Shown here in pieces: positions 14,838 to 23,272 of a stretch of 64,000 bases of DNA. How positions within the stretch are numbered: position 1 is the stretch's first letter; each line of letters begins with the position of its first letter. Below the pieces are notes generated by a model. It was given only the letters and a program-made list of their open reading frames with translations. It was not told the origin of the DNA and searched no databases. This stretch comes from Chloroflexota bacterium (GTDB lineage Bacteria; Chloroflexota; Anaerolineae; Anaerolineales; Villigracilaceae): positions 1 to 64,000 of the forward strand of contig JAIOOU010000002.1 in assembly GCA_021414245.1 (NCBI GenBank). Reading direction: 5' to 3'. The position numbers and the translations under genes were made by a program.

Positions 14838-16571
14838 CTATTTTTTTGCCTTGATGGTCTGCCGTGCTGTTTGCAGCAACTCGTGCGCCGAGCGCAGGGT
14901 CCCTTCGCCGACTTCGCCCAGCATCTGCGAAAGCTCAAGCAGGCGGGACTCACCGTCCAAATGCTCGACCCGCGTCAGGGTGCGGCCCTTATCGACCAGT
15001 TTCTGAACCTGATAATGCTGGTCGCCAAAGACCGCCAGCTGGGGAAGATGGGTCACACAAAAGACCTGGTGCGACCGGGAAAGATTCCATAGTTTGTGGC
15101 CCACCACCATGCCAACACGCCCGCCAATGCCCTGGTCGATCTCATCGAAAATGAGGGAGGGCACCTCATCGGCGCGGGCCAGGACGTTCTTCAAACCAAG
15201 CATCAGGCGTGAGGTCTCACCGCCCGAGGCGATCTTGGCAAGTGGTTTGAGTCCTTCGCCGGGATTGGGTGCAACCAAAAACTCCACGCGATCAAAGCCA
15301 TTCTGGTCAAAGGCAATGCGGGTGCCATCCGGCATGGGTGCCCCGTTGGCATCCGGCTTGGTCTGGAAGTCCACGCCAAAGGTGGCGGATGCCATCTTCA
15401 GGTCATCCAGTTCAATTTCAATGCCCTTGCCCATTTCAATCGCGGCGGATTTGCGTTTTTCGGTCAACGCACCGCCCTGCTTGGCAAGTTTCTCAAGCAG
15501 TTTGGCTTCTTCCATTTCCAGTTCATTAATGCGGTCGGCTGCGCCGGTAATGGTCTCCAGTTGCTTTCGGGCCTCGGCGCCATACACAATCACAGCCGGG
15601 ACACTGCCCCCAAATTTGCGGACAAGCGAGTGGATCAGATCCAATCTCTCCTCCACCTCTTCGAGGCGTTTGGGATTGAACTCGATCTCCTCGAGATATG
15701 CACGCAGCCCGTGAATGACATCAGACATCGTATCCAGTAAAAGCTCGGCCTGGCCGGCCAGTTCCTCCTGGCCGGCATCTATTTTTGCGAGGGCAGCCAA
15801 AGCCTGCGCCGCCTGCCCAACCAGATCGGTGGCGGCGGGCATTTCCGGTGAACCTTCATCCAGCACAGACAGGGCCTCCTGTGCATTTTGAGCAAGCGAT
15901 TCCGCATTGGCCAGACGGTCACGCTCCTTGCGCAATTCCTCATCCTCGCCGGGCTTCAATTTGGCAGATTCGATCTCCTCGGCCTGATACGTGAGCATTT
16001 CGATGCGGCGGTCGGCATCTGACTGCGCTTTTCGTAGCTCGGATAGTTCGCGGCGCAAATTCAACAACGAGTGATAGGTCTGACGGTAGTCGCCAAGGGG
16101 TCGGGCCACTTCAGCGTAGCGATCGAGCAGGCCCAGGTGTGCGCGCGGATCGAGGAGGGAAAGATGTTCGGCCTGTCCGTGGATGTCGATCAACAGCGCG
16201 CCAATCTCCTTCAGCAGGCCGACGTTAACCGTGCGGCCGTTGATACGAGCCACGCTGCGTCCCTCCTTGCGGACCTCGCGCATGAGCACCACATAATTGG
16301 GATCGTCCATCAATTCCTCACGGTTGAGGACGAAATGCACCGCTTCCTTTTCGGGACCCTTGAGTTGGAAGACCGCCTCAACAAAGGCGGCGTCTGAATC
16401 AGCGCGCACAAAGGTTGGGTCGGCCTTGCCGCCGATCAGCATCACCACAGCATCAAGGATGATGGATTTGCCCGCGCCCGTTTCACCCGTGAGGATGATC
16501 AGGCCCGAGTCAAAACGCAAATCAAGCTTGTCTATAATGGCAAAATTCTGGATGTGAAGTTCGGTAAGCAT
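14838..16571 (-). CDS. recN: DNA repair protein RecN
   Basis: 577-residue SMC-like ATPase that acts at DNA double-strand breaks and helps homologous recombination. It starts MLTELHIQNFAIIDKLDL with Walker A GETGAGKS at about residues 30-37. The middle is a long coiled coil (about 150-370), and the ATPase halves rejoin with the signature ASGGETSRLMLGLK and Walker B SLIFDEIDQGIGG. Length is typical (about 550-580). It is the last gene of a minus-strand operon that begins with the split Cas4-like nuclease; 3 bases separate it from the preceding gene. Adjacency to nadK is common in other bacteria. I see no LexA-type box before the operon. Confidence 0.96.
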   Translation of the reverse strand: MLTELHIQNFAIIDKLDLRFDSGLIILTGETGAGKSIILDAVVMLIGGKADPTFVRADSDAAFVEAVFQLKGPEKEAVHFVLNREELMDDPNYVVLMREVRKEGRSVARINGRTVNVGLLKEIGALLIDIHGQAEHLSLLDPRAHLGLLDRYAEVARPLGDYRQTYHSLLNLRRELSELRKAQSDADRRIEMLTYQAEEIESAKLKPGEDEELRKERDRLANAESLAQNAQEALSVLDEGSPEMPAATDLVGQAAQALAALAKIDAGQEELAGQAELLLDTMSDVIHGLRAYLEEIEFNPKRLEEVEERLDLIHSLVRKFGGSVPAVIVYGAEARKQLETITGAADRINELEMEEAKLLEKLAKQGGALTEKRKSAAIEMGKGIEIELDDLKMASATFGVDFQTKPDANGAPMPDGTRIAFDQNGFDRVEFLVAPNPGEGLKPLAKIASGGETSRLMLGLKNVLARADEVPSLIFDEIDQGIGGRVGMVVGHKLWNLSRSHQVFCVTHLPQLAVFGDQHYQVQKLVDKGRTLTRVEHLDGESRLLELSQMLGEVGEGTLRSAHELLQTARQTIKAKK

Positions 16572-16574
16572 AGG

Positions 16575-17105
16575 TTATAACTGGATCCCTGCGAGCCGCG
16601 CATAGACTGTGGATGTCGCGACGACCGCGTAAATTCCAAGCATGATGATCGACAACATGCCGCCGGTAAAAAACAGAAACAAGGCAATCGGAACGGCGCC
16701 CGCCGCAACGCCGGCGGCGCAGGCAATGAACAGCCAGCGCGAACGGCGTTTTCCCGTCACCCGCAAGGCAATGTTGGAAAGATATACACCCGCACCACCC
16801 GCCACCGCAATTGAAACAAAGATCATGTAGAAACCGATAAAGGAGGCAACGAATCCCAGCAGGCCGCTGGCGATCAGGGACAGGATAAAGGTGGTCCCAA
16901 ATCCGGTCAGATAATCGTACCAAAGTGCCGTATCGAATATTTTTTTATGCTGGTTGACGCATTCCCTGCACATGTATCCGGTCGGTGTACCGACCGCGCA
17001 GGAGGTGCAAATGTAACGTTCACAGCGTTTGCAGCGCAGGCTGGTCTCGCGGTCCGGGTGGACATAACAATAGGTTGCGGTTGAAATGGTTTGTGTCTCT
17101 GTCAT
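16575..17105 (-). CDS. B-box-type zinc-finger membrane protein
   Basis: 176-residue protein. The first 55 residues carry Cys/His pairs like a B-box zinc finger: C13 with H16, C25 with C28, C33 with C36 and C46 with C49, in CYVHPDRE, RCKRCERYICTSC and MCRECV. The rest holds about four transmembrane segments (for example FGTTFILSLIASGLLGFVAS and ALFLFFTGGMLSIIMLGIYA). Cytosolic zinc finger plus membrane domain is a frequent but uncharacterised layout, sometimes fused to rhomboid proteases; no rhomboid Ser/His motif is visible here. Its start overlaps the nadK stop (ATGA), so the two are translationally coupled. Confidence 0.75.
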   Translation of the reverse strand: MTETQTISTATYCYVHPDRETSLRCKRCERYICTSCAVGTPTGYMCRECVNQHKKIFDTALWYDYLTGFGTTFILSLIASGLLGFVASFIGFYMIFVSIAVAGGAGVYLSNIALRVTGKRRSRWLFIACAAGVAAGAVPIALFLFFTGGMLSIIMLGIYAVVATSTVYARLAGIQL

Positions 17106-17965
17106 CGTGGAAATCCTAGGGAGTTTTCATTCATATGGGCCGTGATATTTCGATAAAAATAACCGGGGTCACCGAAGCGGACAAATTGTGCAGTTACATC
17201 GGCGGCGGTCACATCCACGTGGTCATCCTCCATCAGGGGGGTGGGCGGCTGTCCGTCCACGCTAAGGACGGAGTTTTCGCTCTTGATCACAATACTGACC
17301 GAGGAGCCTTCCGATAAAACCACTGCGCGGTCCACGGAAAGGTGGGGAGCGATGGGGACCAGCAGGATATTTCGCAATTCAGGCGGCAGGATCGGCCCGC
17401 CCGCAGCCAGGGCGTAGGCCGTGGAACCGGTCGCGGTGGATGCGATCAAACCGTCCGCAACATAGCTGGTCAGCCGGCGCCCATCCACGGAGGCGGTCAA
17501 GCGCACGGGACGCAGATTTTGTCCGCGGGCGACAACCGCTTCATTCAGTGCATTGGAACTACCAAGTTTCTCGCCGGCACGAATATGTTCGGCACGCAGC
17601 ATCATGCGGTTTTCGATCCAGGCTTCGCCATTAAATAATTTTTCAAAGTACTCGCGCCATTCCTTGCGGTCGATCTGGATCAGAAAACCCAGCCTGCCCA
17701 GGTTGACACCGAGAATGGGCACGCCGCACGGAGCGCATAAATGCCCGGCGCGCAAAACACTGCCGTCGCCACCGACTGCAATAAGCATATCAAACTCGTT
17801 TCTTTTCACCCGATTGCGAAGTTCCTCATCATATAAGGAGCCGCAGGGAGCGGGAATACCTCTCTCCTTCAGAAATTCGGATATGGCTTCGGCTTGAGCG
17901 AAGGCTTCCGGCATTTTTGTATATGCCGTCACAACAGGGTGCTCGGGGATGAAGGAGGCAGTCAT
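17102..17965 (-). CDS. nadK: NAD kinase
   Basis: 287-residue cytosolic kinase that makes NADP+ from NAD+ and ATP. Signature motifs are GGDGSVLRAGH (about 67-77 of the mature frame), NLGRLGFL, NEAVVARG and the STATGSTAYALAAGGPI loop that holds NAD. Length fits the family. I used ATG 17965 because MTASFIPEHPVVTAYTK begins a normal nadK N-terminus; a longer frame to 18103 adds 46 residues without a start signal. TATAAT lies 6 nt upstream (17972-17977), so nadK may also have its own leaderless promoter inside the operon. The stop overlaps the start of the zinc-finger gene. Confidence 0.95.
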   Translation of the reverse strand: MTASFIPEHPVVTAYTKMPEAFAQAEAISEFLKERGIPAPCGSLYDEELRNRVKRNEFDMLIAVGGDGSVLRAGHLCAPCGVPILGVNLGRLGFLIQIDRKEWREYFEKLFNGEAWIENRMMLRAEHIRAGEKLGSSNALNEAVVARGQNLRPVRLTASVDGRRLTSYVADGLIASTATGSTAYALAAGGPILPPELRNILLVPIAPHLSVDRAVVLSEGSSVSIVIKSENSVLSVDGQPPTPLMEDDHVDVTAADVTAQFVRFGDPGYFYRNITAHMNENSLGFPR

Positions 17966-18005: not shown

Positions 18006-18524
18006 CTAGGCAAGGCTTTGATCACAAACCCTCTTGAAACCGCATTTGGCGCAGCGCCCGGCCTGTTCGTGCGAACGGGGCACATCCTTTTTGTATTCGT
18101 CATGTTTCATGTCCGCCAACAGGTCGATCAGGGACTCCTCCAGCTCGCGTGTATAGTCTATTGCAAAATCCCTGTTTTCGTAGTGGATAATGCCATAGGG
18201 CGGGCGGACCTTGTATGTCTTTTCCACCAGCAGACAGTAGGCAGCCAGCTGGTAAATATGTGAATCATAGGGGGCTTCCGGTGCGCGGCCGGATTTAACC
18301 TCCACGGGGATGATCTTCCCGTTTTGTTGCACAAGATAATCCGGTTTACCGGTCAGCCCCAGGGCCGTATAGAAAAGGGGTTTTTCCACCTTGCCCCATC
18401 CGCGCGTATCGGAATAGATGATACGCCCTCCTGGCAGACCGGCTTCCTTTCGCTGAGCCGAAGACTGGCGAAAGAAAAGAATGGCAAGAACAAGGAGGAA
18501 GAGGGCCAGGTAAAGATAAATCAT
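18006..18524 (-). CDS. Cas4/RecB-like PD-(D/E)xK nuclease, C-terminal half with N-terminal membrane anchor
   Basis: 172-residue protein. A hydrophobic helix (MIYLYLALFLLVLAILFF) opens it. The remainder matches the C-terminal two thirds of a Cas4/Dna2-type nuclease: D62 in GKPDYLV, E75 and K77 in IPVEVKSGR, the QLAAYCLLVE helix (Q92, Y96), and three Cys in CAKCGFKRVC (158, 161, 167), which are three of the four Fe-S ligands. The expected N-terminal Cys and His motifs are absent, but they appear in the separate small gene at 19209-19445. A HEAT-like gene lies between the halves, 18 bases upstream. No cas1, cas2 or CRISPR array is in the window. Confidence 0.8.
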   Translation of the reverse strand: MIYLYLALFLLVLAILFFRQSSAQRKEAGLPGGRIIYSDTRGWGKVEKPLFYTALGLTGKPDYLVQQNGKIIPVEVKSGRAPEAPYDSHIYQLAAYCLLVEKTYKVRPPYGIIHYENRDFAIDYTRELEESLIDLLADMKHDEYKKDVPRSHEQAGRCAKCGFKRVCDQSLA

Positions 18525-18542
18525 TGCAGCGCTCGAATGAAC

Positions 18543-19175
18543 CTAAATTTTTTCCACTATTCTGATCAATTTATTCAGCCTTGTATAATCCGAACCGGAA
18601 AGCTCATTGCTTCGTTTTTCAAGGACTTTGATGAATTCATGCTTGTTATTTTCGTTGACGGCAGGCAGGATTCTTTCCGCATGTTCCGGGACTTCCTTGT
18701 GGTGGCAGGTGGACAGGTCGTGCAACAAGTCGGGAAAGATCGATTTGGTGTATTCGGCGTTGGCTGCCGCGGTATAAGCAATGGCGGTCAGTGACTTGTC
18801 CACAAGGATATCGGAACCCGTTTCTTTGGCCTTCCGGATCACATCCAGATGCTTAAAAGTGAAATCCGGTTTCACCTTCGCGATCTCCGCCAGCGCGAAC
18901 ATCGCACCCTGGACCATGTTTTGGTGTCGGCTCTTCAACAACTTAATAAAGTCATCGCCATATTGCGTGACAAGATCCGGGTCAATGGCCGCGATCTCAT
19001 ACATGACATTCACACAATCGTTGTGGATGTTTTTGTTCTCGTTCCACATGTTTTTGGCGATCTCCTGAATGCCGGCCCTGTCATTGCGTGCGACGAGATC
19101 ACGCGCCAGGTCGAGATTGGGCGTCCGGTCACGGCGGGTCTGTAAATAACCAAGGCGGTTCAATAAATCAGACAT
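18543..19175 (-). CDS. HEAT-like helical repeat protein between the two Cas4-like halves
   Basis: 210-residue all-helical soluble protein with pairs of amphipathic helices of HEAT/ARM type (for example NDCVNVMYEIAAIDPDLV, NMVQGAMFALAEIAKVKPDF and KSLTAIAYTAAANAEYT). Such solenoids usually bind proteins or nucleic acids. It lies 33 bases downstream of the Cas4-like N-half and 18 bases upstream of the C-half, so it is most likely co-translated with both and could bridge them (inference). No catalytic motif is visible. Homologues are often annotated as HEAT-repeat or DNA alkylation repair-like proteins, but I see no alkyl-base binding signature. Confidence 0.75.
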   Translation of the reverse strand: MSDLLNRLGYLQTRRDRTPNLDLARDLVARNDRAGIQEIAKNMWNENKNIHNDCVNVMYEIAAIDPDLVTQYGDDFIKLLKSRHQNMVQGAMFALAEIAKVKPDFTFKHLDVIRKAKETGSDILVDKSLTAIAYTAAANAEYTKSIFPDLLHDLSTCHHKEVPEHAERILPAVNENNKHEFIKVLEKRSNELSGSDYTRLNKLIRIVEKI

Positions 19176-19208
19176 CTGTTTCCTAATGGAGAGGGTGGGA
19201 AGGATTGT

Positions 19209-19445
19209 TTACAGGATCTGTGCGGTACAAAACCCCACCAGCAGGAGAATCGCAGCGAGCAGCAGGATCAGGCCAAAGGTCCGCAAAAGAAGCGCGGACA
19301 GGGTCTTTCGTCCGTGTCGACGGTGGAGTTCGGTCCCGGCCGCCAGTTCCGCCTTATTTTCAGACTCGATGCCATCCTTGCGGTAGCGCCAGGCCCGGCG
19401 GCAATATAAATAACTTCCAATTTCAGAGGCGCGAATAACGGGCAT
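19209..19445 (-). CDS. Cas4-like nuclease N-terminal half with C-terminal membrane anchor
   Basis: 78-residue protein. Residues 4-20 (IRASEIGSYLYCRRAWR) match the Cas4 N-terminus, where the first Fe-S Cys follows the S-x-L-x-x-x-x-C pattern (C15). AAGTELHRRHGR (residues 36-46) matches the G-x-x-x-H motif that supplies the metal-binding His (H41). The protein then ends in a hydrophobic helix (about 56-73, TFGLILLLAAILLLVGF). It lacks the D, ExK and remaining Cys motifs, which are in 18006-18524. I chose ATG 19445, with TGCTATACT 6 nt upstream. It is the first gene of the operon that ends with recN. Confidence 0.75.
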   Translation of the reverse strand: MPVIRASEIGSYLYCRRAWRYRKDGIESENKAELAAGTELHRRHGRKTLSALLLRTFGLILLLAAILLLVGFCTAQIL

Positions 19446-22172: not shown

Positions 22173-22694
22173 GTGAATATCCTCTCCCTACTTTTCTGGA
22201 CCTTCATCAAAGTCAATCTGCTCAGCACCTCCGGCTCGGCTTCCACAGGCCTGCTGTACAACGAAGCCGTGGGACATTTTTTAACCGATGACCAGTTCGT
22301 GCAGGCTGTTGGACTGGCCACTCTCCTGCCCGGTAGTGACGCTTTACAGCTGGCCATGTTCGTCGGATATACTGTGGCGGGCATCCCAGGCGGCCTGGTA
22401 TCCTTGTTCGCCGCCATTCTGCCGCCCACTGTTATCATGTTGGGCGTGGTCATGGTCCTGCACCGGATCAAACGCGAAGCCTGGATCAGCCGCTTCGTGG
22501 AAGGGTTGACGCCCGCCGTGGCGATCCTGATCCTGACCGTGGCCTGGAAAATATTCAGGGGAAGCGGGGATACCGATATTGGATGGCAGTCTCTTGTTCT
22601 TGGGGGTGCAGGGCTGGTCGCGTTGTTGTTTGAGGTACCTGCGCCTTTGGTGCTGCTTGCCTGCGGACTGATCGGGACATTTTTATTCAAATGA
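22173..22694 (+). CDS. chromate transporter half (ChrA family, short form)
   Basis: 173-residue single-domain ChrA-type transporter. The N-terminal segment FWTFIKVNLLSTSGSASTGLLYNE fits the chromate-transporter first helix, and FVQAVGLATLLPGSDALQLAMFVGY holds the conserved motif with a Pro-Gly break. About five hydrophobic segments follow. Short ChrA proteins come in pairs that assemble in the membrane. The start is GTG. The stop overlaps the next start by four bases (ATGA). Whether chromate or another anion is carried is not shown by the sequence. Confidence 0.9.
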   Translation: MNILSLLFWTFIKVNLLSTSGSASTGLLYNEAVGHFLTDDQFVQAVGLATLLPGSDALQLAMFVGYTVAGIPGGLVSLFAAILPPTVIMLGVVMVLHRIKREAWISRFVEGLTPAVAILILTVAWKIFRGSGDTDIGWQSLVLGGAGLVALLFEVPAPLVLLACGLIGTFLFK

Positions 22695-23272
22695 ACTCAT
22701 CCCTCCCTTCCCCCGAGGAACCGGTCGTCATTAAGGCGCAGTCGAAATTCAAGGTCGACATGCGTCTCTTTTGGATCTTCCTAAAAGTAAACCTGCTGAC
22801 CACGGCCGGGCCCACTTCCGTTGGCCTTTTGTACAAGGAGACCGTCGGCACGATCCTGTCCGAGACTCAATTTGTCGAGGCGGTTGGGTTTTCAAACCTG
22901 GTCCCCGGCAGTGAAGCCCTCAAACTCGCCATGTTCATTGGGTATGCCTCCGGCGGCGTGCCGGGTTTGATCGCCGCCCTGCTGGGCGCAATCATCCCGC
23001 CCACCGTCATCATGCTTACGGTCGCATCCATTCTCGTCCGCTTTCAGGGACAGGATTGGATGAAGCATTTCATCAGGGGCATGAGTCCCGCGGTCGGCGT
23101 GCTGCTGGCACTGGTATCCTGGCAATTAATGCGGGCCGGAAGCCGGCAATCCTTCAAATGGCGAACCCTCCTGATTGCCATCCTGAGCTTTATCGCCCTC
23201 GTTATCTTCAAGATCCCCCCGCAATATGTTTTGATCTGTGCGGGTGTGGTCGGATTATTTCTCTTTCGGTAG
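22691..23272 (+). CDS. chromate transporter half (ChrA family, short form) 2
   Basis: 193-residue partner of the preceding gene. It has a 25-residue hydrophilic lead (NSSLPSPEEPVVIKAQSKFK) and then the same domain: LFWIFLKVNLLTTAGPTSVG, FVEAVGFSNLVPGSEALKLAMFIGY and GVPGLIAALLGAIIPPTVIM. The paired motifs L-P-G-S-D/E-A-L-x-L-A-M-F in both genes mark them as tandem copies of the short CHR type. Translational coupling with the first copy suggests a heteromeric transporter. A universal-stress-type protein starts 8 bases downstream. Confidence 0.9.
   Translation: MNSSLPSPEEPVVIKAQSKFKVDMRLFWIFLKVNLLTTAGPTSVGLLYKETVGTILSETQFVEAVGFSNLVPGSEALKLAMFIGYASGGVPGLIAALLGAIIPPTVIMLTVASILVRFQGQDWMKHFIRGMSPAVGVLLALVSWQLMRAGSRQSFKWRTLLIAILSFIALVIFKIPPQYVLICAGVVGLFLFR

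Follow-up and report, generated by a model that had tools for sequence, protein, structure and literature searches.

Among Cas4 nucleases (PF01930/PF12705), the role of solo-Cas4 proteins is uncharacterised, as far as the main text of the source goes (Hudaiberdiev et al. 2017; PMC5704561). The words 'transmembrane' and 'split' are absent from that main text. ShdA of Shield is an RmuC-domain protein with a membrane anchor. According to the available part of the report, cloning failed for forms that lack the anchor, which seems to limit toxicity (PMC10270631). Fusions of DinG with a Cas4-like nuclease are known as well; the accessible sections of one report describe EndoDinG, with such a nuclease at its N-terminus (PMC11981726). 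Our literature search for split, membrane or transmembrane Cas4, which did not cover all literature, returned no title on the subject among the matches listed. Here, we describe a Cas4-like enzyme encoded as two membrane-anchored, co-inherited halves in many Chloroflexota and on plasmids of two other phyla. The halves are predicted to form a single folded enzyme at the cytoplasmic surface of the cell membrane.

The locus lies in a 64,000-nucleotide stretch of DNA (the window). All genes of the locus are on the minus strand. The original prediction, made from the letters alone, was that a Cas4-like nuclease is divided here between two proteins with a HEAT-like gene between them. The three open frames are all where it placed them. 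The N-half (19209-19445; 78 residues) is predicted to be a cytoplasmic N-terminal nuclease piece, followed by a C-terminal membrane helix at about residues 52-72 (19230-19292). Next comes a HEAT/ARM-like solenoid gene (18543-19175; 210 residues), found between the halves in part of the genus and not constantly. The C-half (18006-18524; 172 residues) starts with a membrane helix at about residues 2-19 (18468-18521), which precedes D62, E75-x-K77, Q92-x3-Y96, C158, C161 and C167. Helices were placed by hydropathy and oriented by lysine and arginine counts. The motif positions claimed for the C-half, and those claimed for the N-half (C15 and G37-x3-H41), were likewise borne out.

The next gene on the strand after the C-half is nadK (NAD kinase; 17102-17965; Pfam NAD_kinase_C, 4.3e-28), for which the start codon at 17965 is our choice. 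It is followed by a 176-residue protein with a B-box-like zinc finger and membrane helices (16575-17105), which recurs between nadK and recN across the order. Its zf-B_box match in Pfam (4.3e-5) falls just below the cut-off. The open frame beyond (14838-16571) we take to be recN-like, a name carried over from the original prediction without a family search. Among 40 loci of the order, the fetched stretch contained nadK in 35 and a relative of the recN-like gene in 32. The term operon can only be inferred here, from neighbouring genes on the same strand. Elsewhere in the window (22173-23272) lie two adjoining, similar membrane proteins of 173 and 193 residues, which are perhaps a short-chain chromate-transporter (CHR) pair.

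Profile comparison confirmed the two proteins, so far as sequence can tell, as complementary pieces of one Cas4/RecB-like PD-(D/E)XK nuclease. The C-half matched Pfam Cas_Cas4 (PF01930) over profile positions 47-158 (7.9e-11; 42.7 bits, above the cut-off of 22.7). The N-half matched positions 3-43 weakly (E 0.046; 14.3 bits, under that cut-off). Against a one-chain Cas4 of the same phylum, the N-half aligned to residues 8-51 (hhalign probability 65.6, E 5.8e-5) and the C-half to residues 56-195 (hhalign probability 99.6, E 1.5e-24). In these alignments the halves tile one chain, and both predicted membrane helices fall into the gap between the aligned parts. The N-half match is weak taken alone; evidence given below carries the identity of this protein.

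The catalytic His, Asp, Glu-x-Lys and QxxxY motifs of Cas4-like PD-(D/E)XK nucleases are present, shared over the two chains. The four-cysteine pattern of a 4Fe-4S cluster, one N-terminal and three C-terminal, is met by C15 with C158, C161 and C167. The cluster itself, like DNA cutting, is inferred. What is not met is the usual Cas4 architecture of one polypeptide, since the window has two genes; a single chain is not a sequence criterion of the family. The one-chain form was seen in only three of the loci read. There is no helicase fused to the nuclease, as would define RecB, AddAB or AdnAB, in window proteins of only 78 and 172 residues. A search limited to cas1 found no match in the window's genome, so that the criterion of adjacent cas1/cas2 for CAS-Cas4 is unfulfilled. 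The same genome encodes one other complete one-chain PD-(D/E)XK protein (G000:C4:245196-245897), a 279-residue frame with four cysteines. No hydrophobic helix is visible in it by eye and it is apparently soluble. A weak, sub-threshold Cas4 match lies on a third contig.

Sequence constraint was evident in both halves. Within the order, alignments of 26 sequences were invariant at C15, W19, G37 and H41 of the N-half, and at D62, E75, K77, Q92, Y96, C158, C161 and C167 of the C-half. C15, G37 and H41 were still invariant in 39 N-halves that included other classes, from which long-insert N-halves (family f78) were excluded. In 19 C-halves, including one from a planctomycete, the Asp, Glu, Lys, Gln and three Cys were invariant and the Tyr of QxxxY varied. 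A strict pattern failed in 5 of 126 N-halves (three with a long insert, one cut by a contig end and one with an altered flanking residue) and in 1 of 126 C-halves. The sequence sets used for motifs and topology were pre-selected by profile score. Comparing the window with five relatives, dN/dS was 0.05-0.12 for the N-half (5/5) and 0.07-0.08 for the C-half in the 3/5 where dS was unsaturated. These values are rough because dS was 0.9-1.5.

The halves are inherited together. Across 297 genomes of the class that were at least 90% complete, both halves were found in 212, the C-half alone in 4, the N-half alone in 2 and neither in 79. The six genomes with a single half are drafts of 140 to 600 contigs. 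Cut-offs (E<=1e-20 for the C-half, E<=1e-7 for the N-half) were set after seeing the lists, and dropped 11 weak C-half and 12 weak N-half matches. Fisher's test was applied to co-occurrence, ignoring kinship. Linkage was counted only in the 123 genomes for which the places of both halves were printed: the halves lay within 2.5 kb in 98, on different contigs in 23 and farther apart on one contig in 2. The latter were separated by 6 kb (G133) and, in a single-contig genome (G239), by 434 kb. That unlinked halves are nonetheless inherited together is the strongest indication that each depends on the other. In the order (the window's genome and 60 relatives), the C-half was present in 54 genomes and the N-half in 53. 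Among the 53 with both, the N-half was upstream of the C-half, on the same strand and contig, in 52; in the other (G051) the two were on different contigs. One linked N-half is cut by a contig end (G042). In G008 the C-half borders a contig end, and an N-half was not detected. Finally, cas1 was present in 141 of the 212 class genomes with the pair and in 41 of the 85 without, a mild excess with no correction for kinship.

Charged residues flanking the membrane helices indicate how the halves are arranged. In 119 of 122 N-halves, four of the 126 having been dropped by length, and in 125 of 126 C-halves, the side of the helix that faces the nuclease piece had more lysine and arginine than the other. 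The reverse was never seen. In N-halves, such residues averaged 3.3 over the 15 positions preceding the helix and 0.3 over the short tail beyond it. C-halves had none before the helix and 3.1 in the 15 positions after. With the cut used, very little is left of the outer tails, on average 3.5 residues beyond the N-half helix and 0.2 ahead of the C-half helix. Hence, the comparison says chiefly that positive residues lie on the nuclease side. Both nuclease pieces are predicted to be cytoplasmic, the N-half being N-in/C-out and the C-half N-out/C-in. The break in the chain would therefore fall in the outer loop of a membrane hairpin.

For structural modelling we prepared 15 natural in-frame pairs read through the stop, two natural one-chain members and 26 single halves. 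The pair of one relative (G026), read through its one stop codon, gave an AlphaFold2 model with pLDDT 94.9 and pTM 0.90. The model has a hairpin of two helices (31-78 and 85-107), the first of which continues from the nuclease piece into the N-half membrane helix. Its best Foldseek match was the Cas4 of a type I-C complex (8d3l). In the VIA comparison with the Cas4 part of 7mi4, 179 residues aligned over model range 1-252 (Z 19.8, rmsd 2.8). Only 145 residues lie beyond the second helix; by our arithmetic, 34 or more of those aligned must therefore fall in the N-half or the helices. The joined chain is thus predicted to be a complete Cas4 fold with two long helices. This structure is of one covalently linked chain, from a relative and not from the window; the link helps AlphaFold2, and there were no coordinates from which the site could be measured.

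Taken together, these analyses uphold the original prediction and extend it further than was claimed. That the halves should co-occur was met in 212 of the 218 class genomes having either. That they should be linked was true of most, 98 of 123. A nearby chain holding all motifs would have counted against the proposal; the sole other complete PD-(D/E)XK chain is on another contig. A working split enzyme, as opposed to a broken gene, is supported by co-occurrence, by predominant linkage and by a relative's pair that models as a complete Cas4 fold when made one chain.

The gene between the halves fared differently. HEAT genes separate the N-half and C-half in 17 of the 52 linked pairs of the order, and one genome (G009; locus L087) has two in tandem there. 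In four genomes (G040, G049, G053 and G058) the HEAT gene lies away from the halves, and G053 has neither half. We conclude that it is a lineage-specific insertion, in part of the genus. Any role in the enzyme is unsupported, and we rejected the HEAT gene as a required partner. The AlphaFold2 model of the HEAT protein (pLDDT 89.8) matches armadillo repeats (Z about 16). A HEAT glycosylase like AlkD did not appear among the 50 structural matches listed or in the Pfam matches, and is not excluded. Where the 35 remaining linked pairs are concerned, 34 gaps span -10 to +90 nt and one is 439 nt (G004), with start codons of our choosing. Adjacent halves often overlap by 4 nt or lie a few dozen nt apart; 21 of 84 adjacent pairs are in one frame, and the stop codons vary (TAA, TAG and TGA). 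At two loci of other families (L183, 1224-2162; L210, 2421-3191) the intervening gene is another one, which looks L,D-transpeptidase-like by eye, without a family search.

We then looked beyond the class. In a scan of 84,980 genomes, the best 80 of 398 relatives were all Chloroflexota by title. A search of 400 genomes of the phylum gave 158 with a match, ordinary Cas4 included, and further members were found. Phyla other than Chloroflexota were sampled through plasmids only. Most loci of other classes had split pairs, but not all: no N-half was found beside the C-half in L187 and L198, and L193 is broken by a stop. In family f78, where the N-half has an insert, three loci (L195, L221 and L226) encode both pieces, with two hydrophobic stretches, in a single open frame. 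In a tree of 54 rows these three did not group together but fell between nine split members of the family, with three changes required by branches of good support. The pieces have thus probably been joined repeatedly, and repeated joining is a classic sign of a shared job. The catalytic Asp is replaced in these one-chain proteins and also in split members L222-L224. In two pairs of family f70 (L199 and L204), the cysteines of both halves are kept and the catalytic Asp, Glu and Lys are lost. These are possible non-nuclease Fe-S forms of the same pair.

The pair also occurs on plasmids of Planctomycetota and Bacillus subtilis (L232, 2151-2932; L233, 1624-2396; L235, 1185-1923). A one-chain query matched a plasmid of Paludisphaera borealis. 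There, the genes of a 91-residue hypothetical protein and a 169-residue PD-(D/E)XK protein overlap by 4 nt, and each protein is a member by its score. On plasmid pSINAC03 of Singulisphaera acidiphila, the pair adjoins a gene for an N6 methylase, with mobF close by. All three matching plasmids of B. subtilis, one from strain DSM 5611, have the order helicase, 77-residue protein, 81-residue protein, 162-residue Dna2/Cas4 protein and hfq. In the one plasmid whose sequences were read, the N-half and C-half had profile scores of 9e-14 and 5e-25 for a million sequences. The upstream helicase matched Helicase_C_2 (1.6e-44), a domain also found in DinG. In the annotated plasmid records, the N-half is only a 'hypothetical protein'.

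Of 35 plasmid records matched, neighbourhoods were read for B. subtilis (3), Paludisphaera, Singulisphaera and Chlorohelix; the rest, including 7 from Aeromonas, stand outside the N-half count. The Chlorohelix match is an ordinary cas operon. On a plasmid of Planctomyces sp. SH-PL62 (L234, 1837-2336), a C-half in two short frames lies behind an IS701 transposase gene and looks broken; no N-half is annotated beside it. A 28-row tree that included plasmid copies along with one-chain Cas4 had long branches and was unresolved. Hence, a single origin of the split for all three phyla is not demonstrated. In viruses, 31 IMG/VR stretches matched a pattern but none was confirmed, and two queries found no match in phage records.

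The interpretation that we hold with high confidence is that the two proteins are subunits of one Fe-S PD-(D/E)XK nuclease of Cas4/RecB-like type. This confidence attaches to the existence of one enzyme and not to its role, and there is no biochemical evidence; a heterodimer in the cell is inferred. Some observations sit less well with it. The pair is missing from 79 of 297 class genomes, and some relatives lack catalytic residues while keeping the cysteines. In the window, where an unrelated gene separates two incomplete halves, one could also suppose that a complete membrane Cas4 gene was broken by the HEAT insertion and is decaying as a pseudogene. Decay is at odds with the retention of every motif in both halves across the order, with dN/dS of about 0.1 or lower where estimable and with conservation of both halves in 212 class genomes. 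Moreover, the genes are split in 35 of 52 linked pairs with no HEAT gene between them. We regard a pseudogene as practically ruled out. Frameshifting or stop-codon read-through might instead yield one protein after all, given adjacent genes that overlap by 4 nt or lie a few dozen nt apart, with 21 of 84 in a shared frame. That fraction does not exceed the third that chance alone would give, the stop codon is not constant, an intact gene intervenes in 17 of 52 pairs, and the halves are on different contigs in 23 of 123. Such joining was rejected, and we leave it only the slenderest of chances.

A different possibility accepts that the pair assembles, but as an Fe-S membrane sensor or DNA-binding anchor with a Cas4 fold, and not mainly as a nuclease. 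Loss of catalytic residues with retention of cysteines in L199 and L204, and absence of the Asp from several f78 proteins, one-chain and split, would fit this. In the window's order, however, every sequence of the 26-row alignments has the D, the E-x-K and the H. We think the sensor or anchor improbable, without dismissing it. The remaining alternative concerns purpose, and is compatible with one enzyme: defence against incoming DNA, from phage or plasmid, in place of repair or housekeeping. One plasmid copy adjoins a DNA methylase gene and is near a relaxase gene. In the sections of each source available, membrane-anchored ShdA of Shield protects from phage and lowers transformation (PMC10270631), and in Synechococcus a Cas4-like nuclease reduces how well RSF1010 replicons are transferred or maintained (PMC10653904). 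That 212 of 297 class genomes have the pair, and that most loci of the order keep it next to nadK and recN, looks like housekeeping. Defence is a serious possibility towards which we do not lean.

The two-subunit nuclease can be pictured as follows. In the one-chain order, an N-terminal nuclease piece would be followed by a helix out, a short outer loop, a helix in and the remaining nuclease. Cutting the chain in the outer loop would leave one helix in each half, and the halves would reunite in the membrane. The helix of the N-half that bears motif I is predicted to continue straight into its membrane helix. Assembly that depends on the membrane would keep an unspecific nuclease off the chromosome. 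With less certainty, we infer that what the enzyme processes or destroys is DNA ends or single strands near the membrane, in incoming, outgoing or broken DNA. Its partners, again less certainly inferred, may be the DinG-like helicase on B. subtilis plasmids, with nadK and recN alongside in the window's order. We favour membrane-dependent assembly of a nuclease for DNA ends or single strands because ShdA provides an example of a membrane-tethered nuclease of PD-(D/E)XK kind that acts on DNA. The role itself is a guess.

The role stays open because lineages differ in genomic context. Found in 212 of 297 class genomes, and with nadK (35/40) and recN (32/40) as neighbours in the order, the pair would seem to do housekeeping work on DNA; its plasmid copies speak for DNA transfer or defence. 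Tentatively, and with more doubt than conviction, we propose a new class of two-part nuclease. Its active site and Fe-S cluster would be assembled only inside the membrane, since a chain interrupted in the outer loop would need the membrane to come together, and this would act as a safety catch. The enzyme would also be tied to DNA crossing or touching the membrane and, on plasmids, would work with a DinG-like helicase.

The form spread across the phylum is predicted to be a two-subunit, membrane-docked enzyme whose small N-terminal subunit has been overlooked in annotated plasmid records as a hypothetical protein. The annotated 'Dna2/Cas4' or 'PD-(D/E)XK' protein, expressed alone, would lack the first Cys and the His of the enzyme. 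Because B. subtilis plasmids carry the pair, one of them in strain DSM 5611, the question can be tested in a standard organism. If correct, the pair would offer a clear example from nature of an enzyme whose chain was cut in a non-cytoplasmic loop and rejoined several times.

How does the pair compare with described systems? AddAB, AdnAB, Dna2, EXO5 and MGME1 have the same nuclease fold as the model (Z about 10-16). In these proteins the nuclease domain is in one chain and is not known to contain a membrane hairpin. The model also matches FmDinG (9kqh; Z 10.5), which we take to be linked to EndoDinG. RmuC and ShdA belong, we assume, to another family, without the Cas4 set of cysteines. As described in the available part of the report, ShdA resembles the pair in being a membrane-anchored, cytoplasmic nuclease of the PD-(D/E)XK superfamily, but is one chain with an N-terminal helix (PMC10270631). 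With Cas4 and solo-Cas4 of Chloroflexi, as set out in the main text of the source, the pair has in common the catalytic and cysteine motifs and the predicted fold, the latter by our comparison with 7mi4 (PMC5704561). It differs in having two chains, two membrane helices and no CRISPR link, which in its own genome rests on the cas1 search. The helicase-nuclease partnership of EndoDinG, from the accessible sections of its report, is like the cluster on B. subtilis plasmids (PMC11981726). EndoDinG is fused in one chain, whereas the B. subtilis plasmids have separate genes for the helicase and for a split, membrane-anchored nuclease.
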